From NCBI RefSeq assembly GCF_012272695.1, contig NZ_CP050902.1, positions 2,790,001-2,854,000 of the forward strand: 64,000 nt of DNA, read 5' to 3'. This stretch comes from Nocardioides sp. JQ2195. Its GTDB lineage: Bacteria; Actinomycetota; Actinomycetes; Propionibacteriales; Nocardioidaceae. Shown here piece by piece: positions 10,640-56,704 of this stretch; position 1 is the first letter of the stretch; each line of letters begins with the position of its first letter. The notes beneath the pieces were generated by a model. It ran no database searches and was not told the origin of the DNA. It saw only the letters and a list, made by a program, of their open reading frames with translations. A program made the translations under genes and the position numbers.

Positions 10640-11041
10640 ATGCTTGAGCGACTGTTCGCCCCCACCGTTGAGGTCCAGGCCCACTGCGACCTGCCCTGCG
10701 GCGTCTACGACCCCGCACAGGCCCGCATCGAGGCCGAGTCCATCAAGGCCGTCATCGGCAAGCTCGCCGACAACGACGACCCCGACTTCCGCACCCGTGC
10801 CGTGCTGATCAAGGAGGAGCGCTCCGAGCTCGTCAAGCACCACCTCTGGGTGCTGTGGACCGACTACTTCAAGCCCCCGCACTTCGAGAAGTACCCGCAG
10901 CTGCACACGCTGGTCAACGAGGCGACCAAGCTTGCCGGCGCCGGGGGCACGAAGGGCACGATGGACGTCGAGGCTGCTGACCAGCTCCTCGCCAAGATCG
11001 ACGAGATCGCCGAGATCTTCTGGGAGACCAAGAAGGCCTGA
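10640..11041 (+). CDS. sodN: Nickel-containing superoxide dismutase
   Basis: Dismutates superoxide in a hexameric cytoplasmic enzyme. The 133-residue precursor has a 14-residue leader ending VQA, then the nickel hook HCDLPCGVY. After cleavage His15 becomes residue 1, and Cys16 and Cys20 are the thiolate ligands. The mature length (119) is normal. The gene is intact even though its last 19 bases, including the stop codon, are the attachment core of element 1; the native downstream terminator is now displaced to 21052-21081. The divergent sodX gene supplies the protease. Confidence 0.96.
   Translation: MLERLFAPTVEVQAHCDLPCGVYDPAQARIEAESIKAVIGKLADNDDPDFRTRAVLIKEERSELVKHHLWVLWTDYFKPPHFEKYPQLHTLVNEATKLAGAGGTKGTMDVEAADQLLAKIDEIAEIFWETKKA
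11023..11041. repeat. attL core of element 1 (sodN 3' end)
   Basis: GGAGACCAAGAAGGCCTGA includes the sodN stop codon and recurs exactly at 20990-21008 in the same orientation. The match stops at both edges, giving a 19-bp core. Confidence 0.92.
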
Positions 11042-11070
11042 GAAGGTCCGCAGGTCGCTGACCTGCATCG

Positions 11071-12141
11071 TTAGTCACTAGACGCCGCCTCAGTCCGCAC
11101 AGAGTCCGCAAGCGGATTGAGAGCGGCGTCTAGCACGTCTCGGGTGCGATCCTCATCGCCCGGGAACAGGTGCGCGTAGGTCCGCAGGGTGATGACCGCG
11201 GACGAGTGGCCCAAGAACGTCTGCACCTGCTTGACCGACGCTCCCCCGGAGATTAGGGCCGAGGCCGCGAAGTGCCGGAAGGCGTGACTGGTCACCCCGA
11301 CGCCGGTGTCTGAGAGCAGTCGCTTCCATCGTCGGTACGTGAGCGGCTCCCCGAACTCATCGCCGAACAGCGCGCCATCGGACGGGTACGCCGCAAGGTG
11401 CGCTGCCAGCTCGTCAATCACGACCTGACCGACCGGCACGGTTCGCGCCGCTCTCCCCTTCACCGGCCCGAGCTCGTTGGACTGGAGCCGCTGCCGCTCG
11501 ACGCGGATCGTTCGCCGCAGAAAGTCGACGTCAGAGACCTGCAGCCCGAGGAGCTCCCCGATCCGCAGGCCGGAGCCGGCGAGCGTCACCACGATGGCCT
11601 GCCACCGCTCATCGAGAGCCGAGCGCACCGCCTGCACTTCCTCGAGCGTCGGGATCTCGACCTCTCCCCCGGCACCCTTGGGCAGGGTGATCCTCCGGCA
11701 CGGCGTCGACGCGATCACGCGATCCTCGACGGCCGACGAGAACACCTGGGCCATCACGTCGTAGATGTTGCGAATCGACCCGGCCGACAGCCCCTTGTCC
11801 TCGAGCGCCTTCACGAGCGCCTGGACGTGGCTCCGGCGCACCGCGGCCAGCCGATGCGTGCCGAGCGTCGGGAGGACGTGCAGCCGTAGCGCGTTGTCGA
11901 CGATTCGCCGCGTGCCGTCGCTCGAGACCTGGATGCGCTGCCACTGGTCCGCGTAGGCCTTCACTGTGGCCTTGCCCGCCTGTGGATCCACGTAGTCACC
12001 CCGGACGACCGCGGCCGTCACCGAGTCAAGCCACTGCTGGGCGTCGACCTTGCGAGCGAAGTGCCGCGCGTGTTCCTTGTCGGCCTCGTCGCGGTAGCGG
12101 GCTCTCCACTTGCCGTCGGGACGCCTCTTGACGCTAGCCAT
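11071..12141 (-). CDS. int: Tyrosine-recombinase integrase of element 1
   Basis: A 356-residue phage-type integrase. The N-terminal arm-binding region begins MASVKRRPDGKWRARYRDE, and a SAM-like core-binding domain follows. The catalytic domain has Arg in GSGLRIGELLGL, the HxxR box SHAFRHFAAS, GHSSAVITLRTYAH with the second histidine/serine pair, and the nucleophile Tyr. It starts at ATG 12141, overlapping the repressor stop by 4 bases, so int is coupled to the repressor and read leftwards toward attL, only 30 bp away. It is unlike the integrase of element 2, in keeping with a different target site. Confidence 0.95.
   Translation of the reverse strand: MASVKRRPDGKWRARYRDEADKEHARHFARKVDAQQWLDSVTAAVVRGDYVDPQAGKATVKAYADQWQRIQVSSDGTRRIVDNALRLHVLPTLGTHRLAAVRRSHVQALVKALEDKGLSAGSIRNIYDVMAQVFSSAVEDRVIASTPCRRITLPKGAGGEVEIPTLEEVQAVRSALDERWQAIVVTLAGSGLRIGELLGLQVSDVDFLRRTIRVERQRLQSNELGPVKGRAARTVPVGQVVIDELAAHLAAYPSDGALFGDEFGEPLTYRRWKRLLSDTGVGVTSHAFRHFAASALISGGASVKQVQTFLGHSSAVITLRTYAHLFPGDEDRTRDVLDAALNPLADSVRTEAASSD
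11092..11112. promoter_or_regulatory. Candidate integrase arm-site pair, left end of element 1
   Basis: AGTCCGCA-N3-AGTCCGCAAG within the int 3' end closely matches AGTCCGCA-N3-AGTCCGCGAG at 20863-20883 near the other end, in the same orientation. Paired direct repeats flanking the core are typical arm-type Int sites. Function is inferred. Confidence 0.5.
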
Positions 12142-12647
12142 CAGAGGTACGTCGTATCCGGAGTGCCGGGCTCATACCGGAAGCCCACTTTCCCACCGTC
12201 CGGCTCTAAGGCCGCCGCCGCAATCTCAGGTACCGACATCTCGAACCACTGCTTGTATGGCCCGTTCTCCAAGAGGGCTTCTGGCAACTCATCGAAGGAC
12301 TTCCCCACCGAGTCGAGGTACCTCCGCGTTCGCTCCCGGGCGGCCTCTAGTTTCACGGCCGCGAAGCCAAGGTCGGAAGCTCTCGAGCTCACGTCTCCAA
12401 GCAAGAACCGGATCGTCTGCCGATCGGTGTCCATGCTGAACTCGTCGACCGAGGTTTTCAGGATGAAGGCAAGCGATTCCGCCTCGCTGAACCTCAGCGG
12501 CCGCGTGCCCTTCTCGATCGACCACACGGTCGACTGGCTCCACTTCTCGTGACCTTCGTCAACCATTGCTGCGGCCAGCGTGGCCTGAGGCATGTCGCCA
12601 CGTATCGAGCGCACAGCTCGTCCGATTTCCTCATCGCGAGTTGTCAT
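12141..12647 (-). CDS. XRE-family (cI-like) repressor of element 1
   Basis: The 168-residue product has an N-terminal helix-turn-helix of the Cro/cI type (GDMPQATLAAAMVDEGHEKWSQSTVWSIEKG, residues about 17-50). A longer C-terminal part rich in helices follows, with no peptidase dyad visible. It is the first gene of the leftward repressor-int operon and faces the rightward early genes across a 94-bp region with a perfect inverted repeat, the expected place for its operator. ATG 12647 is preferred over an upstream TTG. It would keep the element quiescent; how it is relieved (SOS or helper factor) is not readable. Confidence 0.8.
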   Translation of the reverse strand: MTTRDEEIGRAVRSIRGDMPQATLAAAMVDEGHEKWSQSTVWSIEKGTRPLRFSEAESLAFILKTSVDEFSMDTDRQTIRFLLGDVSSRASDLGFAAVKLEAARERTRRYLDSVGKSFDELPEALLENGPYKQWFEMSVPEIAAAALEPDGGKVGFRYEPGTPDTTYL

Positions 12648-12667
12648 GCGCAACAGGCTACTACCGT

Positions 12668-12689
12668 TTCTAGTTGCCGTCCACTAGAA
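12668..12689. promoter_or_regulatory. Operator candidate between repressor and AlpA-type gene
   Basis: TTCTAGT-N8-ACTAGAA is a perfect inverted repeat in the 94-bp divergent promoter gap. Additional CTAG half-sites occur at 12700 and 12734. TCCACTAG at 12680-12687 also occurs in the iterons of the initiator gene. Confidence 0.6.
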
Positions 12690-12741
12690 CCCATGGTTAA
12701 CTAGATCCCAAGGTTGTAATTCACTGGGAAGGCTAGTCACA

Positions 12742-12930
12742 ATGGAGAAGCTCCTCCGCATCGATGACGTGGCCGCGATGACGGGCATCGCAGCGAACAC
12801 GCTCCGCTATTGGAGGGCCACCAACACCGGCCCTCGGTCGGCGAAACTCGGACGACGCATCGTCTACCGCGAGGCCGACGTGCTCGCGTGGATCGACCAG
12901 CAGTTCGAGGACGGAAGCCCGGCCGCCTGA
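12742..12930 (+). CDS. AlpA/MerR-type excisionase-like DNA-binding protein
   Basis: A 62-residue helix-turn-helix protein (LLRIDDVAAMTGIAANTLRYWRATNTGPRSAKLGRRIVYREADVLAWIDQQ) of the AlpA/excisionase type. It is the first rightward gene, directly after the operator region, and would act as a recombination directionality factor or early activator. Its TGA overlaps the next start (ATGA), beginning an unbroken chain of overlapping genes that continues to the MuF gene. Confidence 0.82.
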   Translation: MEKLLRIDDVAAMTGIAANTLRYWRATNTGPRSAKLGRRIVYREADVLAWIDQQFEDGSPAA

Positions 12931-13178
12931 TGGCCGGGACCGCATTGCCTCAGCCGTTGCCGTGCATCTGCGGCAAGGTCTGCCGTCTCCACGCCTCGCA
13001 CCGGCAGAGCATGAACGCCGACGAGATCCGCCGCCGCTACCAGCTGGAGCGGGTCACCCCGGAGGTTCGCTGCCCGCACTGTGGCGCAGCGCCCGGCCAG
13101 CCGTGCACCGTGGCCATTCCGACTCGGGGCCGAATCCCCGCGGCCCGGGCTCACCCGTCCCGCCTGGCGGCAGCATGA
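12930..13178 (+). CDS. Small zinc-finger phage protein
   Basis: The 82-residue product has a Cys/His cluster near the N-terminus (CICGKVCRLHASH) and a CPHCGAAPGQPC knuckle at about residues 48-59. This is the short zinc-binding finger common in actinophage early genes. Function is unknown; DNA or protein binding is likely. ATGA overlaps on both sides fix its start and reading in the operon. Confidence 0.65.
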   Translation: MAGTALPQPLPCICGKVCRLHASHRQSMNADEIRRRYQLERVTPEVRCPHCGAAPGQPCTVAIPTRGRIPAARAHPSRLAAA

Positions 13179-13783
13179 GCCGCAAGCCGAGCCCGCAGGG
13201 CGGCTACTGGTACGCCAGCGCGATCCGCAAGAGCGATCTACCGGGACCCGCGCGGCACGTGGCCCTGACCCTGGCAAGCGTGGCGGACAGCGCGAGCGGT
13301 CAGGTCCGCGTGTCACTCAGCGTGCTCACCGGCTACACCGGACTCGGACGCAGCACCGTGGCGCGGGCTCTCAACGTCCTCGAGGCCGGCGACTGGATCG
13401 AGAGGGACAGGCCCGCGACGTGGGAGCAGATCCAGCACCGCGAGATGACGACGTACACGACCACGATCCCGGCCGGATACCCGACCTCCACTAGTCCCGC
13501 TCTGACACTAGACAACCTCTCCACTAGTCCCAGAGCGGGACAGGGACCTGTCCCAGAGACGACCTCGACTAGTGCCAGAGCGGGACACAGATCTATAGAT
13601 CTAAGGGCGCGGGCGTCCGCTGGCGCTCCCGCTGCCGCCCGGACAAGCAGCGAGGCCCCACACCTCGAGGTCGTCGTGCCCCAGAACCTGCGCAACGCAG
13701 GACAGCCCTGCACCTGCGATCAGGCCATGACAGCCAAGGACGACCCGAGCGAATGCATCCGCTGCGCGGGGAGGGTCGCATGA
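13175..13783 (+). CDS. Replication-initiator-like protein with in-gene iterons
   Basis: The 202-residue product has a winged-helix type N-terminal domain (residues about 15-75; VSLSVLTGYTGLGRSTVARALNVLEAGDWIE) like phage replisome organisers. A Ser/Thr/Pro-rich middle (STSPALTLDNLSTSP) follows, then a C-terminal part with CTCDQ and CIRCAG cysteines. The middle is encoded by a cluster of direct repeats and an AT-rich palindrome at 13486-13602, as in lambda O where the origin lies inside the initiator gene. I infer that it binds these repeats and starts element replication; a transcriptional regulator is the alternative. ATGA overlaps on both sides. Confidence 0.55.
   Translation: MSRKPSPQGGYWYASAIRKSDLPGPARHVALTLASVADSASGQVRVSLSVLTGYTGLGRSTVARALNVLEAGDWIERDRPATWEQIQHREMTTYTTTIPAGYPTSTSPALTLDNLSTSPRAGQGPVPETTSTSARAGHRSIDLRARASAGAPAAARTSSEAPHLEVVVPQNLRNAGQPCTCDQAMTAKDDPSECIRCAGRVA
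13486..13602. promoter_or_regulatory. Candidate replication origin of element 1 (iterons plus AT-rich palindrome)
   Basis: Three ACTAGT iterons lie at 13486-13498 and 13519-13531 (CTCCACTAGTCCC) and 13564-13587 (CTCGACTAGTGCC then AGAGCGGGACA; the latter tail is shared with copy 2). GGGACAGG/CCTGTCCC arms lie between copies 2 and 3. AGATCTATAGATCT at 13589-13602 is a sharply AT-rich palindrome in GC-rich DNA. Confidence 0.5.
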
Positions 13784-13935
13784 CCTACGACCGCTACGGC
13801 GAGCCCGTCGAGGACGAGACCGGCCAGGACGACACGCACACCTGTGACAACGGATGGCTCGGTGAGGACTACGCCGGCCGCCCGATCCCCTGCCTGACCT
13901 GCAGGCCCCACCTCCAGAAGGGCTACACACGATGA
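13780..13935 (+). CDS. Small acidic Cys-containing element protein
   Basis: A 51-residue acidic product (MTYDRYGEPVEDETGQDDTH...) with a C-terminal CLTC pair. I do not recognise it. ATGA overlaps with both neighbours support expression as part of the early operon. Confidence 0.55.
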   Translation: MTYDRYGEPVEDETGQDDTHTCDNGWLGEDYAGRPIPCLTCRPHLQKGYTR

Positions 13936-14168
13936 AGGTCCAGATCCGCCGCGTCAGCAAGACGACCCGACGCCACAAGGCTGACGGCAAGGGCAGCACG
14001 CTCGACAAGGCGTTCGTTCAAGGCTTCGTCGACGGCTACTCCGTCATCTGCCGGGCAGGCAAGGGATGGGACTGCTCGTGCCTCGACGACGAGTGCGAGC
14101 ACCCCGACGCGATCGCCGACCTGCTGCACCCCGAGATGCTCGCCGAGCTCGAGGACGTCGCCGAGTGA
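13932..14168 (+). CDS. SWIM-type zinc-finger small protein
   Basis: A 78-residue protein with a basic N-terminus (KVQIRRVSKTTRRHK) and a CSC-x5-CEH pattern in WDCSCLDDECEHPDA, matching the CxC...CxH SWIM zinc-finger pattern. SWIM domains bind DNA or proteins; the role here is unknown. Start overlaps the upstream stop (ATGA) and its stop overlaps the HNH start (GTGA). Confidence 0.6.
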   Translation: MKVQIRRVSKTTRRHKADGKGSTLDKAFVQGFVDGYSVICRAGKGWDCSCLDDECEHPDAIADLLHPEMLAELEDVAE

Positions 14169-14554
14169 AGCCCTGCCTATCGTGCGGTGAGCCGAGCGAA
14201 GAGACCCGTTGCCCTGACCACCAGCGCCCCGACGAGCGCGGCACACCGGCAGAGCGCGGCTACGACTGGACGTGGCAGAAGCTCAGCAAGAGGGCACGTG
14301 CCCTGCAGCCGTGGTGCTCCGACTGCTTCACGACCGACGACCTGACCACCGACCACAGCCCGCAGGCCTGGGCACGCAAGGCAGCCGGCAAGGCCATCCG
14401 CCTCCGCGACGTCGACGTCGTGTGCCGCTCCTGCAACGCCAAGAGAGGGAGGGCCAAGCCGCTGGAGACCCAGGGGACGGGCCCCCTCGAGTCAGGTTCC
14501 ACACCCGTGGGTAAGGCGCAATCCCCGTTACACACGAGAACGGTTCTCAAGTGA
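14165..14554 (+). CDS. HNH endonuclease, terminase partner
   Basis: A 129-residue HNH nuclease with zinc CxxC pairs (KPCLSCGEPSEETRC; CSDCFTTDDLTTDH; VVCRSCNAKRGRAK) and the catalytic His of the DH motif. In HK97-like phages an HNH protein next to the terminase is needed for cos cleavage during packaging, so a packaging role is likely. The N-terminal region differs from its element 2 counterpart, but the last 17 residues and the DNA from there on are nearly identical, marking where the shared head module begins. GTG start overlaps the upstream stop. Confidence 0.82.
   Translation: MKPCLSCGEPSEETRCPDHQRPDERGTPAERGYDWTWQKLSKRARALQPWCSDCFTTDDLTTDHSPQAWARKAAGKAIRLRDVDVVCRSCNAKRGRAKPLETQGTGPLESGSTPVGKAQSPLHTRTVLK
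14536..14548. promoter_or_regulatory. Palindrome GAGAACGGTTCTC at the terminase start, element 1
   Basis: A perfect 6-bp-arm palindrome 2 bases before the terL GTG, followed by AAGTGAGG. The same site lies at 52931-52943 in element 2, and TGAGAACGATTCTCA lies at its capsid promoter (48929-48943). A shared head-gene control site is possible; it also encodes conserved HNH residues. Confidence 0.4.
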
Positions 14555-16023
14555 GGGCCGGTCCCAAGGCCGCGGTCGACGGGTCAGCGCTCCCCTGGGC
14601 ACCGCGCTCTGTAGGTGCTGCTCGGTTCGGGAAGTTCTGCGAGAGGTTCATCGTCACGCCCAAGGGGACGGGCGCTCGCAAGCCGATGAAGCCCCGGCCG
14701 TGGCAACTCGAGCTCGTGGGCTCGGTGCTCGACGCCACACCTCGACCGCGCACCGCTGGATGGATGATGCCGCGCGGACAGGGCAAGTCGACGCTGGTCG
14801 CCGCCCTCGGTCTCTACGACCTGTTCGAGGGTGAAGAGGGCGCGTCCGTCGTGGTCGCCGCCACCGACGAGCGCCAGGCCGGCATCGTGTTCAAGACAGC
14901 CGCCCGCATGGTGGAGCTGAACGAGGACCTGCAGAGCCGCTGCCAGGTATTCAAGGACCGGCTCTACATCCCCGAGCGCGGTGCCTCGTTCGTCTGCCTG
15001 CCGGCCGAGCCCAAGCGCCTCGAGGGACTCGACTACACGACGGCCATCCTCGACGAGATCGGCGTCGTCTCGCGTGACACCTATGAGGTTCTGGCCCTCG
15101 CACAGGGCAAGCGTGAGACCTCGACCCTGATCGGCATCGGCACCCCCGGCCCTGACCCGACGAACAACGTCCTGGCCGACATGCGCCAGTACGCGGCTGA
15201 GCACCCGGACGACCGCACGTTCGTCTGGCGCGAGCACTCCGCGGCCGGCTTCGAGGATCACCCCGTCGACTGCGCTCACTGCTGGGAGCTCGCCAACCCC
15301 GCGCTGGATGACTTCCTTCACCGCGACGCGATGCAGGCCCTCCTGCCGCCGAAGACCCGCGAGGCCACGTTCCGCCGCGCCCGCCTCTGCCAGCTCGTCA
15401 CCGACACCGACGGCAAGTTCCTCCCGGCCGGCGTCTGGGATGGCCTGTCCACCGGGGCCGGCGTGCCCGACGGGCGAGAGGTCGTCATCGCCCTCGACGG
15501 CTCGTTCAGCGACGACACGACCGCGCTCCTGGTGGGCACCGTGGCCGCCGAACCTCACTTCGATGTCGTGAACGTCTGGGAGCGCCCGGCCGGGGACGAC
15601 TCCTACCGCGTGCCGGTGGCCGACGTCGAGCAAGCCATCCGCGACGCCTGCAAGCGCTGGCAGGTCGTCGAGATCATCGCGGACCCGTTCCGCTGGACGC
15701 GGACCCTGCAGGCGCTGGAGTCCGAGCGGCTGCCCGTCGTGGAGTTCCCGCACTCCCCGTCACGCCTCACGGCCGCGACGACCGACCTCTACAGCGCCGC
15801 GACCAATGGCCTGATGACGCACTCAGGAGATCCCCGGCTGACCGCTCACGTCGGCGCAGCCGTCATCACCGAAGACGCCCGGGGGATGCGCCTTGCCAAG
15901 GCGTCCCGGTCCCGCAATGCCCGCAAGATCGACCTGGCCGCGTGCCTGGTCATGGCGCACTCCCGCGCCACGTGGCGAGCTACTCGCCGAGCCCGCAAGA
16001 AGACTAGGAGCTTTGCCTCATGA
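14551..16023 (+). CDS. terL: Phage terminase large subunit
   Basis: The DNA-packaging motor and nuclease that fills procapsids. The 490-residue product has Walker A PRGQGKST at 74-81, Walker B AILDE with Asp168/Glu169, and an RNase H-like nuclease domain with Asp316 in IALDGS plus the late acidic motif ARKIDLA near 463. Length is normal. GTG 14551 overlaps the HNH stop by 4 bases. Its element 2 counterpart differs at about 15 positions by eye. No small terminase gene is recognisable nearby, so DNA recognition may rest with HNH or one of the small proteins. Confidence 0.95.
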   Translation: MRAGPKAAVDGSALPWAPRSVGAARFGKFCERFIVTPKGTGARKPMKPRPWQLELVGSVLDATPRPRTAGWMMPRGQGKSTLVAALGLYDLFEGEEGASVVVAATDERQAGIVFKTAARMVELNEDLQSRCQVFKDRLYIPERGASFVCLPAEPKRLEGLDYTTAILDEIGVVSRDTYEVLALAQGKRETSTLIGIGTPGPDPTNNVLADMRQYAAEHPDDRTFVWREHSAAGFEDHPVDCAHCWELANPALDDFLHRDAMQALLPPKTREATFRRARLCQLVTDTDGKFLPAGVWDGLSTGAGVPDGREVVIALDGSFSDDTTALLVGTVAAEPHFDVVNVWERPAGDDSYRVPVADVEQAIRDACKRWQVVEIIADPFRWTRTLQALESERLPVVEFPHSPSRLTAATTDLYSAATNGLMTHSGDPRLTAHVGAAVITEDARGMRLAKASRSRNARKIDLAACLVMAHSRATWRATRRARKKTRSFAS

Positions 16024-17504
16024 CCGACCTGACAACCACTCTCCTGCAGAAGCTGGACGAGTCCACCGCGGCCTATGCCGAGCTGGACGGCTACTACTCT
16101 GGCACGCAGCCGCTGGCCTTCCTCTCCCCCGAGGCGAAGACAGCGCTGGGCACCCGGTTCGGCCGAATGGCCTCCAACATCCCGCGCCTTGCCGTGGCTG
16201 CCCTGGCCGAGCGTCTGCGGATCACCGGCTTCACCGGGGCCGACGTGTGGCCCGATTGGATCCGCAACGACCTCGACCAGCTGGCCGGCGTCGCGCACCG
16301 CGAGGCGCTCACCCTGGGCAAGTCCTACGTGATCGTGTGGGCCAACCCCGACGGCTCCCCGCGCGTCAGCATCGAGTCTGCCCGCCAGGTCGTCGCGCTC
16401 CGCGACCCCGGCACGCGCCAGATCGTCGCCGCGATCAAGCGCTGGGAGACCGGCACGACCACGGAGGCCGTGCTCTACCGTGCGGACGGGATCACCCGCC
16501 TGCGCTCCAACAGTCCCGGCGCGACCACGACCGGCTTCCAGATCGTCGAGGAGATCGACAACCCGCTCGGAGTCGTGCCCGTCGTGGCGCTGCGCAACTC
16601 GGATCGTCTGCTCGAGGACGGCGTGAGCGAGATCGAGGATCTCAAGCCCTTGGTCGACGGGCTGAACAAGTCGCTGGTCGACCTGATGACGACCTCGGAG
16701 TACGTCGGCCGCCCGCGCCGCTGGGCTACCGGCATTGAGCTCGAGGAAGACGACGAGACCGGCGACGCCGTGAACCCGATCCCCGAGGGCAACCGGGCCA
16801 TGATCTCGGAGAACCCCGACGCGAAGTTCGGGCAGCTCAACGCCGCCGACCTGGCCGGTTATGAGGCATCGGTGCGCGTGATCCTCGGTCAGATCATGGC
16901 CGTCTCCGCGCTGCCGGCGCACTACGTCGGCGTGTTCTCCGACAACCCCGCCAGCGCCGACGCGCTCCGCGCTGCAGAGGCATCCCTGACCGCACGCGCC
17001 GAGGCACGTCAGGCGACGTTCGGCCGATCGTGGGAGGACGTGGCCCGCCTCATGGTGGCAGTCCGCGAGGGCACCGACCCGACGACTGTCGAGGCGCGCG
17101 TCCGTTGGGCCGACGCCGCTACCCGCTCGGTGGCACAGGAGGCCGACGCGATCGTGAAACTGTTCGGTGCCGGGCTGCTCCCCGTCTCGACCGCGCTGGC
17201 CCGCCTGGGCTACGACACGGACCAGATTGCCGAGATCCGCAACGCTCGCCGCGGTGAGGCCCTCGACGGCGCAGGGCTCAACCTCGACGGGCTGCTCCAG
17301 GCGGAGGGCACGCCGACCAGCGGTCCCACCGAAGGCGCTGACCTCAAGGCCAAGGCCGACGCGCTGGGCATCCTGATCCGTGCCGGTGCCGAGCCCAAGT
17401 CTGCCGCCGCTCTCGTCGGCCTCTCCGGGGTCGACTTCACCGGAGCCGTGCCGGTCTCGCTGCGCCTGCCCGAGTCCGAGGCCACCGAGCTCGAGGACGC
17501 CTGA
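16020..17504 (+). CDS. Phage portal protein (SPP1 gp6-like)
   Basis: Forms the dodecameric DNA gate at one capsid vertex. The 494-residue product has the family order: helical N-terminus, beta wing (WANPDGSPRVSIESARQVVALRDP), the long stem helices (PLVDGLNKSLVDLMTTSEYVGRPRR) and the crown region near VSALPAHYVGV. It carries a C-terminal stretch of about 55 residues (after TPTSG, before LEDA) that the element 2 portal lacks. Start overlaps terL (ATGA) and stop overlaps the MuF start. Confidence 0.93.
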   Translation: MTDLTTTLLQKLDESTAAYAELDGYYSGTQPLAFLSPEAKTALGTRFGRMASNIPRLAVAALAERLRITGFTGADVWPDWIRNDLDQLAGVAHREALTLGKSYVIVWANPDGSPRVSIESARQVVALRDPGTRQIVAAIKRWETGTTTEAVLYRADGITRLRSNSPGATTTGFQIVEEIDNPLGVVPVVALRNSDRLLEDGVSEIEDLKPLVDGLNKSLVDLMTTSEYVGRPRRWATGIELEEDDETGDAVNPIPEGNRAMISENPDAKFGQLNAADLAGYEASVRVILGQIMAVSALPAHYVGVFSDNPASADALRAAEASLTARAEARQATFGRSWEDVARLMVAVREGTDPTTVEARVRWADAATRSVAQEADAIVKLFGAGLLPVSTALARLGYDTDQIAEIRNARRGEALDGAGLNLDGLLQAEGTPTSGPTEGADLKAKADALGILIRAGAEPKSAAALVGLSGVDFTGAVPVSLRLPESEATELEDA

Positions 17505-18031
17505 TGGCCTACCGCGACACCCTCAAGGCGCTAGCCGCCGAGACAGAGGCGCAGGTGCTCGCCGCCTATGCCAGCTACCTGGCCGGCCGGATGAACGAGG
17601 ATGCGTTCGTCGCGATCCTGGCCGCCTACATCGCGGCCGGCAACGTCAAGGCCTACGCGCTCGCGGATCTCTCCCTCGCCATGTCCCTCTCCGTCGAGCT
17701 GGGCACGCCCGTGGCCGCGCTCGGAGTGAGCCCGCCGGCCGATGACGCCGACCGGCTGACCAAGGCCGCTCACACGCTGCTGGCCGTCGACGAGCTCGCC
17801 ACCGGCCGCGTGGGCAGGCTGGCCCGCTCCGAGCCACTGGAGTCCGCAGCACGCGCCTACAGCGCGGCCATGAAGGAATCCCCGCACGTCGCCGGATGGG
17901 TCCGCAACGTCTCCGGTGGAGCCTGCCAGCTCTGCACCTGGTGGTGGCGCGAGGGACAAGTCTGGCCGGCCGATCACGAGATGCCCACACACAAGGGATG
18001 CACCTGCACCCCTGAACCCGTCACCGCCTGA
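17504..18031 (+). CDS. MuF-like minor head protein
   Basis: A 175-residue helical protein ending in the Cys/His signature of MuF/SPP1 gp7-type minor head proteins (ACQLCTWWW ... DHEMPTHKGCTCTP). It would sit inside the head at the portal and may be ejected with DNA. There is no fused toxin domain. Its start overlaps the portal stop by one base (TGATG). Confidence 0.85.
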   Translation: MAYRDTLKALAAETEAQVLAAYASYLAGRMNEDAFVAILAAYIAAGNVKAYALADLSLAMSLSVELGTPVAALGVSPPADDADRLTKAAHTLLAVDELATGRVGRLARSEPLESAARAYSAAMKESPHVAGWVRNVSGGACQLCTWWWREGQVWPADHEMPTHKGCTCTPEPVTA

Positions 18032-18042
18032 AAGGAAGAACC

Positions 18043-18441
18043 ATGACCGAACAGATTGCCGAGACCGAGGAAGCCCCCGAGGTCGAGACCGAAGAGACCG
18101 ACACCCCCGAGACCGACCCGGAGACGTTCCCGCTCGAGTACGTGCAGAAGCTCCGCGACGAGTCCGCGAAGTACCGCACCCGAGCACAGCGGGCCGACGA
18201 CCTCGCGCAGCGGCTCCACGTCTCACTGGTGGCCGCGAGCGGCCGCCTTGCCGACCCCGACGACCTGCCGTTCGTCGAGGCCCACATCGACGACCCCGAG
18301 GCGCTCACGGCCGCGATCGACGACCTGCTTGCCCGGAAGCCTCACCTCGTTTCGAGGACGCCTGTCGGTGACGTAGGGCAAGGTGCCACCCAAGGGGAGG
18401 CAGCCGTCGACCTCGCCGGGATGCTCCGGCGTAACGCATGA
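18043..18441 (+). CDS. Phage scaffolding protein
   Basis: A 132-residue, very acidic N-terminus (TEQIAETEEAPEVETEETD) followed by a predicted coiled coil (EYVQKLRDESAKYRTRAQRADDLAQRL) and a basic C-terminus, the usual scaffold design for procapsid assembly. It has its own ribosome-binding site AAAGGAAG, unlike the overlapping genes before it, as expected for a protein needed in quantity. No prohead protease accompanies it, so scaffold is probably released without cleavage. Confidence 0.85.
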   Translation: MTEQIAETEEAPEVETEETDTPETDPETFPLEYVQKLRDESAKYRTRAQRADDLAQRLHVSLVAASGRLADPDDLPFVEAHIDDPEALTAAIDDLLARKPHLVSRTPVGDVGQGATQGEAAVDLAGMLRRNA

Positions 18442-18455
18442 CGAAAGGGAGAACC

Positions 18456-18617
18456 GTGGCAACCAGAGCGGAATTCGAGCAGACGATGCTCGACAAGCTG
18501 ACCAAGATGGCGGAAGGCGCGAGCAACTCGACCCAACTCCTGAAGCTGGCAGAGACCTACGCCTGGCTCGTGAGTCCCGGACAGCCGCACGGCGGGGAAG
18601 TTCACGTCACCAAGTAG
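18456..18617 (+). CDS. Variable small protein between scaffold and capsid (element 1)
   Basis: A 53-residue basic helical protein starting at GTG 18456 behind AAAGGGAG; an in-frame ATG at 18438 that overlaps the scaffold stop is the alternative. I do not recognise it. Element 2 has an unrelated 75-residue protein in the same slot while both neighbours are nearly identical, so this position is swapped. A capsid-decorating or size-determining role is conceivable but unsupported. Confidence 0.6.
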   Translation: MATRAEFEQTMLDKLTKMAEGASNSTQLLKLAETYAWLVSPGQPHGGEVHVTK

Positions 18618-18730
18618 TTAAACCTCACTTGAGGTATGCTGAGAGGGACGGTCCTGGCGGCCGTCCCTCTTCGCTTCGCGGTCCTGGCGGCCGAGCGTGA
18701 CAACTTCCGCTCTCACCAAAGGACGCCATC
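18618..18730 (+). promoter_or_regulatory. Capsid-gene promoter and leader hairpin (element 1)
   Basis: The 113-bp gap holds palindrome CCTCACTTGAGG (18623-18634), a TATGCT -10-like box (18635-18640), then a 9-bp stem hairpin (18643-18669). GTCCTGGCGGCCG occurs twice (18651-18663 and 18681-18693), allowing alternative pairing. The element 2 leader keeps the same hairpin. Confidence 0.6.
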
Positions 18731-19606
18731 ATGGCCGTAGACACCAGCAACGCCGCAGAACTCACCGCCGAGCAGGTCCAGAAGGTTCTGGTCCAGCCGC
18801 TCGAGGCACAGTCCGCATTCCTCGCAGCCGGCCCCCGGATCATCGACACCGCTGGCCCGCTCCGCCTCCCGAAGATGGGGCCGGCGACCAGTCCCGGCTG
18901 GTTCGACGAGAACGCGCAGATCACGCCCGAGGTCGACCCGACGTTCGACGAGATCATGCTCCTTCCCTCGACCATGCAGAGCGTGAAGACGCTGACGCGC
19001 TTCTCCAACGAGCTGGCTCGCCAATCGGTCATCGCGCTCGACCAGGCGCTCCGTGACCGGATCGTCAAGGACGTGGCCGACACCCTCGACAAGCAGTTCC
19101 TGGGGCTCACCGGAGACGGCGTGACCAAGCCCAAGGGTCTGTTCGTCTACGCCGGCCAGTCGCTCGCCGTCGACGCCGCGGTCGGTCTCGACGACCTCCT
19201 CGACGCCGAGGCCCTCGCGCTCGGTGCGAACGTCAACCCGGACGCGCTCAAGTGGGTCATGACCTCGCGTGAGTTCATCGCGCTGCGCAAGATCAAGGCC
19301 GCGACCGGCTCGAACAACTACGTGCTGCAGCCCGACCCCACCAAGGCCGGCGGCTACACCATCTTCGGCAAGCCGGTCATCGTGACCAACCACCTGACCG
19401 ACACGACCGGCACGCCGAACACCGGCAACATGGCGCTGGTCGACTTCTCTCAGATCGTGGTTGCCCGCGACCTGGCCCCGTCGGTCAAGGTGCTCGACCA
19501 GACGTTCGGCGACTACGACCAGCAGGCCATCCGCGTGGTCGCCCGCTACGACGTGGCCGCCCTCAACGACGACGCCGTGATCGAGCTGACCGGCATCACG
19601 ATCTGA
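18731..19606 (+). CDS. HK97-type major capsid protein
   Basis: A 291-residue HK97-fold capsid protein. Visible features are an N-terminal arm (LTAEQVQKVLVQPLEAQSAFLAAG), E-loop and spine-helix region (VKTLTRFSNELARQS), and the P- and A-domain stretches (FGKPVIVTNHL, GNMALVDFSQIVVARDL, VRVVARYDVAALND type). There is no long N-terminal delta domain, consistent with the separate scaffold and missing protease. Only three substitutions separate it from the element 2 copy. It is expressed from its own leader. Confidence 0.95.
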   Translation: MAVDTSNAAELTAEQVQKVLVQPLEAQSAFLAAGPRIIDTAGPLRLPKMGPATSPGWFDENAQITPEVDPTFDEIMLLPSTMQSVKTLTRFSNELARQSVIALDQALRDRIVKDVADTLDKQFLGLTGDGVTKPKGLFVYAGQSLAVDAAVGLDDLLDAEALALGANVNPDALKWVMTSREFIALRKIKAATGSNNYVLQPDPTKAGGYTIFGKPVIVTNHLTDTTGTPNTGNMALVDFSQIVVARDLAPSVKVLDQTFGDYDQQAIRVVARYDVAALNDDAVIELTGITI

Positions 19607-19926
19607 TGACTGCGCCCACGGCGCAGAGCGTCGCGGACTTCCTTGGCCAGGGTGATGACGTGGGTTTCATCGCCCTGGCCGAGGAACACCTGCCGATGGT
19701 CACGCACATGGTCAACGCCTACACGCGCGGGAAGGGCTTCACCGACGGCATCCCCGACGATGACGTCGCGGCCGTGATCGTGTCCTCCGTGGCTCGACTG
19801 GTGGTCAACCCGGAGCAGTACGACCTCGACACCGCTGGCCCGTTCACGACGCGCTACCGCGTGTTCGACGGCTGGTCCCTGCCCGAGCTCGCGATCCTTC
19901 ACCGCTACCGCAAGAGGGCGCTGTGA
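19606..19926 (+). CDS. Head-tail connector (adaptor) protein
   Basis: A 106-residue mostly helical protein of the gp6/gp15 adaptor type that docks under the portal (VADFLGQGDDVGFIALAEEHLPMVTHMVNAYTRGKGF...). Its ATG overlaps the capsid stop (TGATG). Nearly identical to the element 2 protein. Confidence 0.82.
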   Translation: MTAPTAQSVADFLGQGDDVGFIALAEEHLPMVTHMVNAYTRGKGFTDGIPDDDVAAVIVSSVARLVVNPEQYDLDTAGPFTTRYRVFDGWSLPELAILHRYRKRAL

Positions 19927-20228
19927 GGCGCATCGTCGTCACTCACGTGCAGGTCACGGAGACCACTGACGACTACGGGAACACGGTCACGGTCGAGACG
20001 CCCGTAGATGTCCCGCGCTGCCTCCTGGCCCCGCGCTCGTCGACCGAGCGCACCGACCCACACTCACCGGCCGTCATCAGCGGGTCACAGCTCTACATGC
20101 CCGCACGCTCCACGCCCCCGGCCCCCGCGGACTACTTCCTCATCGACGGGAAGCGGTACGACGCCGAGGGAGAGCCCGGCGTCTGGCCGGGCCGAGGCAT
20201 CGAGGTAGCCGTGAAACACATTCCCTGA
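19923..20228 (+). CDS. Head closure (stopper) protein
   Basis: A 101-residue beta-rich protein (VTHVQVTETTDDYGNTVTVETPVDVP ... YFLIDGKRYDAEGEPGVWPGRGIEVAVKHIP) of the head-completion/stopper type that seals filled heads and gives tails a docking surface. GTG start overlaps the adaptor stop. It is the last structural gene: instead of tail terminator and tail tube genes, a transcription terminator follows. Confidence 0.8.
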   Translation: MRRIVVTHVQVTETTDDYGNTVTVETPVDVPRCLLAPRSSTERTDPHSPAVISGSQLYMPARSTPPAPADYFLIDGKRYDAEGEPGVWPGRGIEVAVKHIP

Positions 20229-20339
20229 CCCGGCGTCAACGTCACCCCGACGTGCTCCTATCTCGCGTCCGGGAACGATGGTGGCGAGCGGCCTTTGCGA
20301 CTTCTTTCACCGCACAGACCCACCAGCGCCAGACACAGC

Positions 20340-20375
20340 GAGACCCCCGGAGTAGTGATGTCCTCCGGGGGTCTC
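20340..20375. terminator. Bidirectional terminator ending the head operon (element 1)
   Basis: A 13-bp perfect stem (GAGACCCCCGGAG with CTCCGGGGGTCTC) with a 10-base loop lies between the head operon and the convergent cargo gene. The same hairpin lies at 47186-47219 in element 2. Confidence 0.88.
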
Positions 20376-20393
20376 CTGCTGCTCTGGGTCGGA

Positions 20394-20720
20394 TCAGGCA
20401 GTCGCCGGGCGGTACTCGGCGAGCTTGTTGCCCAACTCGCGCGCGACCTGTCCGGCCTGAGCCCAGGTCATGTTGTCGTCGATACCCTCGATGGTGAAGC
20501 CGCTCATCTCAACCATCGATCGCAGCGTGCTCACGGCGAGCGGGCCCGCGGGGTTCGATGCCTCGGGGATGAACCAGCGACGGCCGATCTTGGTGCCCTG
20601 CATGCGGCCGGCCCTGAGCTCGCCCCGGACCCACTGCGCCGACACTCGGTCGTGCTCGGTGGAGAGCCGCTCTGCCATTTCGGCGGGGTCGAGGTAGTTG
20701 GTGGTGGATACTGCGGTCAT
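20394..20720 (-). CDS. Cargo-slot gene of element 1: HTH-type small protein
   Basis: A 108-residue protein with an excisionase-like helix-turn-helix stretch (LDPAEMAERLSTEHDRVSAQWVRGELRAGRMQGTKIGRRWFIPE) and an unrecognised helical C-terminus. It is read toward the head operon from its own promoter and behind AGGAG. Promoter and leader are conserved with element 2, where an unrelated protein is encoded, so this is a swap position like satellite accessory-gene slots. A regulator, superinfection or helper-interference function is possible; none is shown. Confidence 0.65.
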   Translation of the reverse strand: MTAVSTTNYLDPAEMAERLSTEHDRVSAQWVRGELRAGRMQGTKIGRRWFIPEASNPAGPLAVSTLRSMVEMSGFTIEGIDDNMTWAQAGQVARELGNKLAEYRPATA

Positions 20721-20795
20721 GGTGCTCAACTCCTACTAGTTGGGTTCCTAGGCCCTGTCCGGTGCTCAACCACCGGGCGGGGCCGACTTGCGTCT

Positions 20796-20825
20796 GTTCT
20801 ATCCCGAGCCACCGACACCTGTCAG
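20796..20825 (-). promoter_or_regulatory. Cargo promoter, element 1
   Basis: On the minus strand, CTGACA (20820-20825), an 18-bp spacer and TAGAAC (20796-20801). The same boxes and spacing occur at 46736-46765. Just upstream lies AGAACATGCAG, also kept in both elements. Confidence 0.65.
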
Positions 20826-20862
20826 CGGAACGGCAACTCCTGCATGTTCTGTGCATGCTCGC

Positions 20863-20883
20863 AGTCCGCAGGGAGTCCGCGAG
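20863..20883. promoter_or_regulatory. Candidate integrase arm-site pair, right end of element 1
   Basis: AGTCCGCA-N3-AGTCCGCGAG, the counterpart of 11092-11112, in the same orientation. CCGCAGGTC is a second motif found near both ends (11049-11057 and 20929-20937). Confidence 0.5.
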
Positions 20884-20989
20884 AAGTTCAGCCGGGACCG
20901 TTGGCGGCCCACGACTGCCAACGCATCGCCGCAGGTCAACCGGCATTTGCCAATCAGGGCACACAATTGCCGTCAAGCGTGGCCCACAA

Positions 20990-21008
20990 GGAGACCAAGA
21001 AGGCCTGA
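20990..21008. repeat. attR core of element 1
   Basis: Second copy of the 19-bp sodN-end core. The DNA beyond it is the original downstream flank of sodN. Confidence 0.92.
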
Positions 21009-46527: not shown

Positions 46528-46570
46528 GTCGGGCTGACAGGATTTGAACCTGCGACCCCTTGACCCCCAG
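46528..46570. repeat. Left att repeat of element 2 (partial tRNA-Pro copy)
   Basis: 43 bp identical to 56712-56754, covering the tRNA from the anticodon loop to the discriminator. It lacks the 5' half, so it is not a tRNA gene. Confidence 0.93.
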
Positions 46571-46589
46571 GCATCGGCAGCGTGTCCGC

Positions 46590-46661
46590 TGATGTTCGCC
46601 AATATCTCCAATCCCCTTACAGGGTTGACGATTGGACGTTCACGGACTTTGGCGAATATCA
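46590..46661. promoter_or_regulatory. Inverted repeat near the left end of element 2
   Basis: TGATGTTCGCCAA (46590-46602) and TTGGCGAATATCA (46649-46661) are 13-bp arms with one mismatch, close to the att repeat. An integrase or accessory-protein site is likely. The 270 bp from 46571 to 46840 otherwise hold the arm-site candidate and the cargo promoter. Confidence 0.45.
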
Positions 46662-46673
46662 GCAATCTGGGTC

Positions 46674-46698
46674 GATAGGGTGACTCATAAGGTGACTT
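46674..46698. promoter_or_regulatory. Candidate integrase arm sites, left end of element 2
   Basis: GATAGGGTGACTCATA followed by AGGTGACTT contains two GTGACT repeats. It recurs with two changes at 56639-56663 beside the integrase stop codon, in the same orientation. Confidence 0.55.
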
Positions 46699-46735
46699 CG
46701 CGGAATATGCAGAACATGCAGAAGGTCCGATTCCG

Positions 46736-46765
46736 CTGACAAGCGTCGGCGGCTCGGGGTAGAAC
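46736..46765 (+). promoter_or_regulatory. Cargo promoter, element 2
   Basis: CTGACA, 18-bp spacer, TAGAAC, matching the element 1 promoter at 20796-20825. Conserved leader DNA follows, including AACTAGTAGGAG ahead of the start codon. Confidence 0.65.
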
Positions 46766-46840
46766 TAACACAAGCGGCCCCGCCCGGTGCTACCAACACC
46801 GGACAGGGCCTAGGCACCCAACTAGTAGGAGTTGAGCACC

Positions 46841-47167
46841 ATGACCACATCATCTATCACCACCACCGCGCACGACCGCGATTGCGGAGATTGGGACTCG
46901 TGCCCGCGGCACGGCAGCACCAGGACGCACACACCCACCGAGTACGGCACTGCCGGCTCGGCGTACAGGGTTATCCGTGAGGTGCTCGAGCTCACGATCG
47001 AGGACGTCGCCAGTATGTGCGAGAGCAACGAGCTCGCAGGCTGGGCGACCGTCGACGGCCTGACTCGCATCGAACAGGGTGCCGTTCCGGTGCCTGCCTT
47101 CTCTGCGGCTCTCTGTCAGTTCTACGCGGACCAGCTCCGGGCTGCTCACGACCGAGCGGACGACTGA
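46841..47167 (+). CDS. Cargo-slot gene of element 2: small HTH-like protein
   Basis: A 108-residue protein. The N-terminus has a small Cys/His cluster (HDRDCGDWDSCPRHGS). The middle looks like a Cro/XRE-type helix-turn-helix (AYRVIREVLELTIEDVASMCESNELAGWATVDGLTRIEQG). It shares promoter, leader and AGGAG ribosome-binding site with the element 1 cargo gene but not protein sequence. It may be a regulator or an interference factor; unproven. Confidence 0.62.
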   Translation: MTTSSITTTAHDRDCGDWDSCPRHGSTRTHTPTEYGTAGSAYRVIREVLELTIEDVASMCESNELAGWATVDGLTRIEQGAVPVPAFSAALCQFYADQLRAAHDRADD

Positions 47168-47185
47168 CCGCTCCCAAACGCAGCA

Positions 47186-47219
47186 AGACCCCCGGAGGAC
47201 ATCACTACTCCGGGGGTCT
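47186..47219. terminator. Bidirectional terminator ending the head operon (element 2)
   Basis: AGACCCCCGGAG pairs perfectly with CTCCGGGGGTCT around a 10-base loop, the counterpart of 20340-20375. Confidence 0.88.
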
Positions 47220-47326
47220 CGCTGTGTCTGGCGCTGGCAGGGTCTCTGCGGTCGAAAGGTTAAGAGCCGCTCTCCTGCCATCGTTCCGAGCCGCTGCACT
47301 CAACGGTCGGTGACGTTCACGCCGGG

Positions 47327-47632
47327 TCAGGGAATGTGCTTCACGGCGACCTCTATCCCGCGGCCGGACCAGACGCCGGCCTCTCCCTCGGCCTCGTACC
47401 GCTTCCCGTCGATGAGGAAGTGATCCGCGGCGACAGGGGGTGTGGAGCGTGCGGGCATGTAGAGCTGTGACCCGCTGATGACGGCCGGTGCATGCGGGTC
47501 GCTGCGCTCGCTCGACGCGCGCGGGGCCAGGAGGCAGCCGGGGACGTCGACGGGGGTCTCGACGGTCTCGGTGTTGCCGTAGTCGTCGGTGATCGTGGTG
47601 ACCTGCACGTGTGTCACCACGAGCCGCCTCAT
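47327..47632 (-). CDS. Head closure (stopper) protein, element 2
   Basis: A 101-residue copy of the element 1 stopper with scattered substitutions (RRLVVTHVQVTTITDDYGNTETVETPVDVPGCLLAP...). It ends the head operon; no tail gene follows before the terminator. ATG start overlaps the adaptor stop by 4 bases. Confidence 0.8.
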   Translation of the reverse strand: MRRLVVTHVQVTTITDDYGNTETVETPVDVPGCLLAPRASSERSDPHAPAVISGSQLYMPARSTPPVAADHFLIDGKRYEAEGEAGVWSGRGIEVAVKHIP

Positions 47633-47949
47633 AGCGCCCTCTTGCGGTAGCGGTGGAGGACTGCCAGCTCAGGCAGGGACCAGCCGTCGAACACGCGGTA
47701 GCGCGTCGTGAACGGGCCAGCGGTGTCGAGATCGTACTGCTCCGGGTTGACCACCAGTCGAGCCACGGAGGACACGATCACGGCCGCGACGTCATCGTCT
47801 GGAATGCCGTCGGTGAAGCCCTTCCCGCGCGTGTAGGCGTTGACCATGTGCGTGACCATCGGCAGGTGTTCCTCGGCCAGGGCGATGAAACCCACGTCAT
47901 CACCCTGGCCAAGGAAGTCCGCGACGGTCTGCGCCGTGGGCGCAGCCAT
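47629..47949 (-). CDS. Head-tail connector (adaptor) protein, element 2
   Basis: A 106-residue protein differing from its element 1 counterpart at only a few positions (APTAQTV for APTAQSV; LAVLHRY for LAILHRY). It would attach below the portal. Start overlaps the capsid stop. Confidence 0.82.
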   Translation of the reverse strand: MAAPTAQTVADFLGQGDDVGFIALAEEHLPMVTHMVNAYTRGKGFTDGIPDDDVAAVIVSSVARLVVNPEQYDLDTAGPFTTRYRVFDGWSLPELAVLHRYRKRAL

Positions 47950-48824
47950 CAGATCGTGATGCCGGTCAGCTCGATCACGGCGTCGTCGTTGAGGGCGGCA
48001 ACGTCGTAGCGGGCAACCACGCGGATGGCCTGCTGGTCGTAGTCGCCGAACGTCTGGTCGAGCACCTTGACCGAGGGGGCCAGGTCGCGGGCAACCACGA
48101 TCTGGGAGAAGTCGACCAGTGCCATGTTGCCGGTGTTCGGCGTGCCGGTCGTGTCGGTCAGGTGGTTGGTCACGATGACCGGCTTGCCGAAGATGGTGTA
48201 GCCGCCGGACTTGGTGGGGTCAGGCTGCAGCACGTAGTTGTTCGAGCCGGTGGCGGCCTTGATCTTGCGGAGAGCGATGAACTCACGCGAGGTCATGACC
48301 CACTTGAGCGCGTCCGGGTTGACGTTCGCACCGAGCGCGAGGGCCTCGGCGTCGAGGAGGTCGTCGAGACCGACCGCTGCGTCGACGGCGAGCGACTGGC
48401 CGGCGTAGACGAACAGACCCTTGGGCTTGGTCACGCCGTCTCCGGCGAGGCCCAGGAACTGCTTGTCGAGGGTGTCGGCCACGTCCTTGACGATCCGGTC
48501 GCGGAGCGCCTGGTCGAGCGCGATGACGGACTGGCGGGCCAGCTCGTTGGAGAAGCGCGTCAGCGTCTTCACGCTCTGCATGGTCGAGGGGAGCAGCATG
48601 ATCTCGTCGAACGTCGGGTCGACCTCGGGCGTGATCTGTGCGTTCTCGTCGAACCAGCCGGGACTGGTCGCGGGGCCCATCTTCGGGAGACGGAGCGGGC
48701 CGGCGGTGTCGATGATCCGGGGGCCGGCTGCGAGGAAGGCGGACTGCGCCTCGAGCGGCTGGACCAGAACCTTCTGGACCTGCTCGGCGGTGAGTTCTGC
48801 GGCGGTACTGGTGTCTACGGCCAT
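47949..48824 (-). CDS. HK97-type major capsid protein, element 2
   Basis: A 291-residue HK97-fold capsid protein identical to the element 1 copy except at three positions (TSTAA/TSNAA, GLAGDG/GLTGDG, TKSGG/TKAGG). ATG 48824 matches the element 1 start; the frame is open into the leader but that part is non-coding in element 1. Mixed procapsids from both elements would be expected if both are expressed together. Confidence 0.95.
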   Translation of the reverse strand: MAVDTSTAAELTAEQVQKVLVQPLEAQSAFLAAGPRIIDTAGPLRLPKMGPATSPGWFDENAQITPEVDPTFDEIMLLPSTMQSVKTLTRFSNELARQSVIALDQALRDRIVKDVADTLDKQFLGLAGDGVTKPKGLFVYAGQSLAVDAAVGLDDLLDAEALALGANVNPDALKWVMTSREFIALRKIKAATGSNNYVLQPDPTKSGGYTIFGKPVIVTNHLTDTTGTPNTGNMALVDFSQIVVARDLAPSVKVLDQTFGDYDQQAIRVVARYDVAALNDDAVIELTGITI

Positions 48825-48940
48825 GACGGCTGTCCTAACGTGAGAGCGGAAGTTGTCACGCTCGGCCGCCAGGACCGCGAAGCGAAGAGGGACGGCCACC
48901 AGGACCGTCCCTCTCAGGGTATCACACTTGAGAACGATTC
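48825..48940 (-). promoter_or_regulatory. Capsid-gene promoter and leader hairpin (element 2)
   Basis: Holds the same GAGGGACGG/CCGTCCCTC hairpin and the GGTCCTGGCGGCC duplication as element 1, after a GATACCCT -10-like stretch. The upstream palindrome is TGAGAACGATTCTCA (48929-48943), overlapping the end of the preceding gene. Confidence 0.6.
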
Positions 48941-49168
48941 TCAGGTGCGAGTCGGGAAGCCCCAGCCGTTGCGCGTGGTCCCGTCATCGTCGCGAGTCGT
49001 GGTGTTCTGCGGATTGAGCCTCGAGAGCTCCTCGGAGATCGAGAGCAGCGCCAACACCTCGGCCGCCTTCAATCGTTGGTCGACCGTCAACTCGTCGAGG
49101 TGGTCACCGATGTAGTCATCGCCGGTCACGCTGTTGAGTACGGGCCACACATTGTTGTAGGTGCTCAT
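48941..49168 (-). CDS. Variable small protein between scaffold and capsid (element 2)
   Basis: A 75-residue acidic helical protein (MSTYNNVWPVLNSVTGDDYIGDHLDELTVDQRLKAAEVLALLSISEEL...). I do not recognise it and it is unrelated to the 53-residue protein in the same slot of element 1, although scaffold and capsid on either side are nearly identical. Confidence 0.62.
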   Translation of the reverse strand: MSTYNNVWPVLNSVTGDDYIGDHLDELTVDQRLKAAEVLALLSISEELSRLNPQNTTTRDDDGTTRNGWGFPTRT

Positions 49169-49181
49169 GGTTTCCCTTTCG

Positions 49182-49598
49182 TCATGCGTTGCGCCGGAGC
49201 ATCCCGGCTAGGTCGACGGTCGCCTCCCCTTGGGTGGCACCTTGCCCTACGTCACCGACAGGTGTCCTCGAAACGAGGTGAGGCTTGCGGGTCAGGAGAT
49301 CGTCAATCGCGGCCGTGAGCGCCTCGGGGTCGTCGATGTGGGCCTCGTTGAACGGCAGGTCGTCGGGGTCGGCCAGCCGGCCGCTGGCGGCCACCAGTGA
49401 GACGTGGAGCCGCTGCGCGAGGTCGTCGGCCCGCTGGGCTCGGGTGCGGTACTTCGCGGACTCGTCGCGGAGCTTCTGCACGTACTCGAGCGGGAACGTC
49501 TCCGGGTCGGTCTCGGGGGTCTCGGTCTCCTCGGTCTCGACTACCGGCTCGGTGCTGAGCTCGATGACTTCCTCGGTCTCGGCAATCTGTTCGGTCAT
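49182..49598 (-). CDS. Phage scaffolding protein, element 2
   Basis: A 138-residue scaffold with an acidic N-terminus six residues longer than in element 1 (IELSTEPVV region inserted), the same coiled coil and a nearly identical C-terminus. Own ribosome-binding site GAGAGAGGAAG. Confidence 0.85.
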   Translation of the reverse strand: MTEQIAETEEVIELSTEPVVETEETETPETDPETFPLEYVQKLRDESAKYRTRAQRADDLAQRLHVSLVAASGRLADPDDLPFNEAHIDDPEALTAAIDDLLTRKPHLVSRTPVGDVGQGATQGEATVDLAGMLRRNA

Positions 49599-49612
49599 GG
49601 TTGCTTCCTCTC

Positions 49613-56643: not shown

Positions 56644-56663
56644 GGTGACTCATAGAGTGACTT
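56639..56663. promoter_or_regulatory. Candidate integrase arm sites, right end of element 2
   Basis: GATAGGGTGACTCATA then GAGTGACTT, starting in the last codons of int, matches 46674-46698 at the other end except at two positions. Confidence 0.55.
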
Positions 56664-56670
56664 ACGCGAA

Positions 56671-56704
56671 AGAGGCGGCTCCGGATTTCTCCGAAACCGC
56701 CTCT
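56671..56704. terminator. Hairpin terminator after the element 2 integrase
   Basis: AGAGGCGG pairs with CCGCCTCT and CCGGA with TCCG(A) around a TTTC loop, between int and the tRNA. Confidence 0.7.

Follow-up and report, generated by a model that had tools for sequence, protein, structure and literature searches.

What is conserved in front of two unrelated genes that occupy the same slot in two related mobile elements, and on which strand does it act? The window, the whole 64-kb stretch of DNA analysed here, contains both elements, each with a small gene near one end. The features at issue are as follows.

11023..21008, unstranded: element A, with an integrase and a capsid/terminase operon, without tail genes; 19-bp direct repeat GGAGACCAAGAAGGCCTGA at both ends
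46528..56757, unstranded: element B, of the same kind as A, in tRNA-Pro; 46-bp direct repeat, 98% identical
20394..20720, minus strand: slot gene A, for an excisionase-like HTH_17 protein of 108 aa; start codon at 20718-20720
46841..47167, plus strand: slot gene B, 108 aa, orphan with a weak HTH_31 match
47188..47221, unstranded: conserved inverted-repeat terminator that separates slot gene B from the head operon; A has its copy at ~20344-20377

Exchanged genes behind a conserved 5' block

Each element is ~10 kb long and carries an integrase, a small HTH gene, and HNH, terminase, portal, capsid and connector genes; no tail genes are recognisable in either by reading of the ORFs and annotation. 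Both combine an integrase and head/packaging genes with an absence of tail genes, the gene content of capsid-forming phage satellites (cfPICI-like), and are satellite-like in this sense. The 19-bp repeats of element A lie at the 3' end of a host gene. Both elements reside in one genome, and their capsid gene is common to 18 loci in bacterial genomes and 39 loci in viral contigs.

The slot is held in each element by a convergent 108-aa gene at the end far from the integrase. The start codons are ATG at 20720 (A) and 46841 (B); an upstream TTG is a wrong start. The slot A protein matches the excisionase-like family PHROG 1840 (E=1.2e-5) and has no match to a PADLOC model, and homologues of the slot B protein are absent from 196 genomes of the genus. 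The two proteins share no significant similarity (best 16.5 bits), and their predicted structures, which are of low confidence (pLDDT 58.7 and 70.5, pTM 0.39 and 0.47), were not used. Element A has a second HTH_17-like ORF, found by eye at 12742-12930.

Alignment of the two slots gives near-identity across CTGACA...TAGAAC, the leader, AGTAGGAG and ATGACC. Identity fades a few codons into the gene and resumes at the common head-operon terminator AGACCCCCGGAGGACATCACTACTCCGGGGGTCT; the leaders match at 86% over 140 nt. The first-pass annotation had described this slot as one where genes are exchanged behind a conserved control region, and the near-identical 5' sequence in front of unrelated proteins bears it out. 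It had also stated that finding one of these two genes in every related element would count against the idea; clearly, the slot is more varied than that, since a related element (L023) carries a DUF6907-like gene there. In this relative, whose major capsid protein is 74% identical, the convergent DUF6907-like gene is accompanied by a second small gene. The two lie ~200-680 nt past the last recognised connector match, and the contig stops before any leader.

Is the conserved part a promoter? The shared block includes a plausible one for each gene.

46736..46765, plus strand: CTGACA-N18-TAGAAC, likely sense promoter of slot gene B; elsewhere seen only in A
20796..20825, minus strand: CTGACA-N18-TAGAAC, likely sense promoter of slot gene A, from the slot alignment

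The earlier report of this conserved promoter holds for A and B, where it is near-identical, but the boxes are weak (a consensus promoter scan did not detect them) and are not shared outside these elements. BLAST matches beyond A and B begin mostly at the leader rather than at the promoter. Repeated AGAACATGCAG motifs 5' of the promoter (46703-46723 and 20840-20858) were likewise seen only in A and B and are a possible operator. The B leader matches other genomes of the genus at loci unrelated to the two elements. Conservation of the A/B block is thus far beyond chance, because the same leader is found in dozens of other genomes. The conserved core is 46776-46854 in B and 20707-20784 in A, and comprises a module of two hairpins plus codons 3-5 of the gene. 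What is shared beyond A and B is this module, with the antisense strand as its functional strand, and not a promoter as first supposed.

It is accordingly very improbable that the block is simply a conserved promoter ahead of a slot for anti-phage or helper-control cargo genes, the role first proposed. The slot does adjoin the att site, and both products are small and possibly DNA-binding. On the other hand, the sole PADLOC defence match among 95 module genes is one homing endonuclease, slot A is excisionase-like, slot B has a weak HTH_31 match and no homologue in the 196 genomes of the genus, the boxes are not shared beyond A and B, and the module occurs far outside satellites. The module is also not a trait of the satellite family, as 57 related satellite loci match only weakly; weak matches near the slot in two of these relatives (L046 and L048) are ordinary terminators.

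Two covarying hairpins and the strand that carries them

The hairpins (H1 and H2 on the sense strand, H1' and H2' on the antisense strand) and the signals around them, as parts of a predicted antisense RNA, are placed as follows.

46849..46854, minus strand: -10 box of the B antisense RNA, GATGAT, within codons 3-5 of the slot gene
46813..46840, minus strand: hairpin H2' of the B antisense RNA, 11 bp; its loop complements the Shine-Dalgarno sequence
46776..46810, minus strand: hairpin H1' of the B antisense RNA, 16 bp, predicted terminator; a terminator scan flags this strand
46764..46775, minus strand: T-rich tail past H1' of B
20707..20712, plus strand: -10 box of the A antisense RNA, GATACT, within codons 3-5 of the slot gene
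20721..20748, plus strand: hairpin H2' of the A antisense RNA, from the fold
20751..20784, plus strand: hairpin H1' (terminator) of the A antisense RNA, from the fold
20785..20800, plus strand: T-rich tail GACTTGCGTCTGTTCT past H1' of A

Both stems covary strongly. In an alignment of 55 sequences, which is model-fitted and so leans toward its own structure, 17 of the 20 pairs change on both sides, above all 500 shuffles; cells with double-sided changes number 141 (32 in shuffles), and 91% of cells are paired, against 28-54% for slid pairings. An alignment-free test, in which H2 arms were swapped between copies, agrees with this despite the leaning of the alignment: 42 of the 55 sequences form at least 4 bp, whereas 1000 swaps averaged 20 and never exceeded 32. 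The sequence of the H2 stem itself differs freely between copies.

There are arguments for placing this structure in the leader of the sense mRNA. H1 and H2 fall exactly between the promoter and the start codon, with the Shine-Dalgarno sequence in the H2 loop, and start-associated repeats (SAS/ESAS) are known in phages, namely cluster K mycobacteriophages (PMC3203893) and cluster EF Microbacterium phages (PMC7302621). On this reading, H1 would stabilise the 5' end of the mRNA and H2 would present the Shine-Dalgarno sequence, raising or regulating translation. The reading was accepted at first and was then overturned by four features that favour the opposite strand, namely the asymmetry of wobble pairs, strand stability, the -10 box and the T-rich tail. 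We now regard it as unlikely.

First, departures from Watson-Crick pairing within the stems are, on the sense strand, 77 A.C and 14 G.U (p=1e-11, kinship ignored), and the 77 A.C therefore correspond to G.U wobbles on the antisense strand. Among the six-base loops of H1 (n=69), C.A occurs 48 times and U.G 11 times, beyond every shuffle. Second, the antisense RNA is predicted to be the more stable of the two in 95 of 99 copies, with mean differences of 12.6 and 9.0 kcal/mol in two sets, and in all 12 copies from phages and alphaproteobacterial plasmids, by 12.2 kcal/mol. The 99-copy set includes sequences used to build the model, and the 12-copy set lies mostly outside it (two phage copies are in both), with a start-codon coordinate that is a few nt off for several alphaproteobacterial copies and phage Squiddly. 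For the copies in the window, the antisense strand folds at -47.4 (z -5.9) for B and -44.4 (z -5.3) for A, and the sense strand at -28.0 (z -2.4) and -32.2 (z -3.3). Selection for structure thus falls on the antisense strand, and conservation of the stems on the sense strand may partly serve the mRNA too.

Third, the antisense strand has a -10-like hexamer (GATGAT, GAAGAT, GATACT, TAGCGT, TAGGGT and others) at +6 to +10 in 80 of the 99 copies. A strong hexamer is present in 49% of copies and at 1.7% of 178 control gene starts, with the best hexamer chosen within the range in both sets, so that the statistics of position depend on the control set; about half of the copies have no strong match. 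The hexamer occurs in all three reading frames: codons 3-5 are low in GC and conserved, and their amino acids and reading frame differ between genes. No -35 box of an antisense promoter was detected among the module copies. Fourth, the A-rich stretch 5' of H1 on the sense strand is, read on the antisense strand, a T-rich tail 3' of H1'. The 12 nt beyond H1 contain on average 3.4 T on the antisense side and 1.5 on the sense side, and four or more T are found in 50% and 0% of cases, respectively. The tail is weak by E. coli standards. Together, H1' and the T-rich tail form a predicted terminator-like end after the region of complementarity, on the antisense side only.

The bottom strand might instead act as single-stranded DNA, either as an Frpo-like promoter on conjugative entry or as a recombination site for cassette exchange. 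G.T wobbles in DNA would favour the bottom strand too, and module genes are often mobile, five of them being tyrosine recombinases. However, the run from -10 box through both hairpins to T-rich tail is the layout of an RNA gene, the module is also found in tailed phages, whose DNA enters the cell double-stranded, and it mostly occurs as single copies, not as arrays. This alternative seems to us quite improbable.

Distribution of the module and the genes behind it

How widespread is the module? The searches, whose E-values come from a shortened calibration, covered samples of the order, class and phylum that overlap, and the copies are related, so that counts overstate independent events. Model R1 finds ~50 places with E < 1e-5 in 215 genomes of the genus. 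Model R3, which includes both stems, finds the module in 36 of 245 genomes of the order, in 110 of 345 genomes of the class (39 of 126 genera, up to 9 copies per genome, E<=0.001) and, at a stricter limit, in 14 of 198 genomes of the phylum. The module also precedes the integrase genes of the Gordonia phages Utz, LonelyBoi and Kiko and is found on Streptomyces plasmids. Further copies lie on plasmids of Komagataeibacter, Acetobacter, Roseomonas, Shinella, Pseudorhizobium, Peteryoungia, Neorhizobium and Rhizobium, and Shinella zoogloeoides has an exact match to 44 nt of an IMG/VR contig (L196). Gordonia phage Squiddly (L251) has the module at the left end of its genome, ahead of an unannotated reading frame that starts at about nt 110. 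On three Rhizobiaceae plasmids (L253, L254 and L255), the module precedes an ORF of 47-54 aa, whose sequence is similar in part between them, and a longer ORF comes next; this looks like a leader-peptide arrangement.

The 99 module copies precede proteins (median 114 aa; start codons assigned by rule) that fall into 62 sequence clusters, 55 of them with a single member. Matches include DUF6907, tyrosine integrases, WhiB, HTH_17, GntR, NUMOD4/HNH and a histidine-kinase-like ATPase. By sequence, then, the module is associated with ~60 unrelated genes in actinobacteria, their phages and their plasmids, with relatives on alphaproteobacterial plasmids, and the best explanation would be that the coding sequence behind it is exchangeable while the controller persists. 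Known Pfam families number 64 in 150 ORFs of module neighbourhoods and 134 in 123 control ORFs; this lower number is no more than suggestive of a mobile-element neighbourhood.

A candidate antisense controller and its known counterparts

What would the module do? The conserved block is probably a portable cis-antisense RNA module of ~75 nt that represses its own gene. The layout described above suggests that the RNA is transcribed from a promoter on the other strand whose -10 box falls in codons 3-5, so that the ~75-nt transcript would begin at about the start codon. It would run through the complement of the ribosome-binding site, fold H2' with an anti-Shine-Dalgarno loop, and finish at the GC-rich H1' and T-rich tail, 5' of the ribosome-binding site. 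Such an RNA would be complementary throughout to its own gene's mRNA around the translation start, where H2 would display the Shine-Dalgarno sequence in a matching loop. By analogy with characterised antisense RNAs, loop-loop contact followed by duplex formation would prevent ribosome binding and silence the gene.

Alternatively, other mRNAs could be the main targets of this RNA, reached in trans by its anti-Shine-Dalgarno loop, with the overlap with its own gene secondary. The H2' loop has a CUCC-like sequence, as expected of any complement of a Shine-Dalgarno sequence, and co-resident copies resemble each other. The free variation of the H2 stem favours self-targeting specificity, and we give a mainly trans-acting role very little weight. 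Under the preferred cis-antisense reading, some cross-action would still occur: H2' is near-identical in A and B, so their predicted RNAs are likely to silence each other's genes.

A naive cell would hold no antisense RNA, and we therefore propose brief expression followed by silencing. A far more tentative extension, which we think doubtful, is that a single ancestral controller has spread over at least two phyla independently of the genes it controls, placed by mobile elements ahead of new genes and giving a pulse of expression on entry and then silencing, with trans-silencing of incoming relatives amounting to RNA-based immunity between elements such as A and B. If the module works as proposed, it would act on accessory genes as a general layer of control that current annotation overlooks, found in roughly one in three of the sampled genomes of the class. 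It would also give a way into the study of many genes whose function is unknown, DUF6907 among others. Repeats around unrelated start codons in phages and other elements, a long-standing puzzle, would become directly testable.

As far as the openly licensed literature shows, the module is apparently undescribed. Within the phylum, the closest case with experimental data is scr4677 of Streptomyces coelicolor, which, like the predicted module RNA, is an antisense RNA of ~70 nt beside a start codon. It lies just 5' of the start of SCO4676, by a small regulatory gene, and its overexpression modestly lowers the SCO4676-specific transcript (PMC3896431). This RNA starts 14 nt 5' of the start codon, its authors expected no cover of the ribosome-binding site, and it is described at a single locus (PMC3896431). 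SAS/ESAS repeats resemble the module in being repeated 5' of unrelated starts, with AGGAG between short arms and an inverted repeat further upstream. They differ from it in sequence: the 13-bp GGGATAGGAGCCC that SAS has near the start codon is absent from the module copies. The ESAS authors obtained no evidence that the repeats pair as RNA (PMC7302621). Identity of the two was rejected, as model R3 finds no SAS site in phage TM4 (L287). Directly 5' of the SAS at 10711 in that phage is a strong hairpin with GGGCCGGTG..CACCGGCCC arms, in a layout that resembles the module. The MRSC-65-2 repeat (PMC11109978) was also set aside because, unlike the module, it is a single long stem.

Among Rfam 15 families, none matches the module at its cutoff. 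The best match for the antisense strand of the phage Utz copy is to the full length of ctRNA_pGA1 (RF00236; 23.9 bits, E=0.0034); this and a second match of 11.9 bits are below the 45-bit gathering cutoff. The copy on Rhizobiaceae plasmid NT26_p1 (L253) has better sub-threshold matches on the sense strand. Weak matches to the scr4677 family (RF02673) fall at the same place, on the sense strand, in that copy and two others (L187 and L188), at 14-21 bits (at most 21.2, below the 41-bit gathering cutoff).

Individual examples of mobile-element genes under antisense control are known. IS10 RNA-OUT, P22 sar and the plasmid ctRNAs are antisense RNAs that silence a gene by covering its translation start, and each is tied to one gene or replicon family. 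The predicted module RNA has the same form, a short, structured RNA from the opposite strand that lies over the ribosome-binding site and ends at an intrinsic terminator. The difference is that the module architecture is found on dozens of unrelated genes. Hence, the principle is that of RNA-OUT, sar and the ctRNAs, and what is new is its modular use over many unrelated genes and its taxonomic range.
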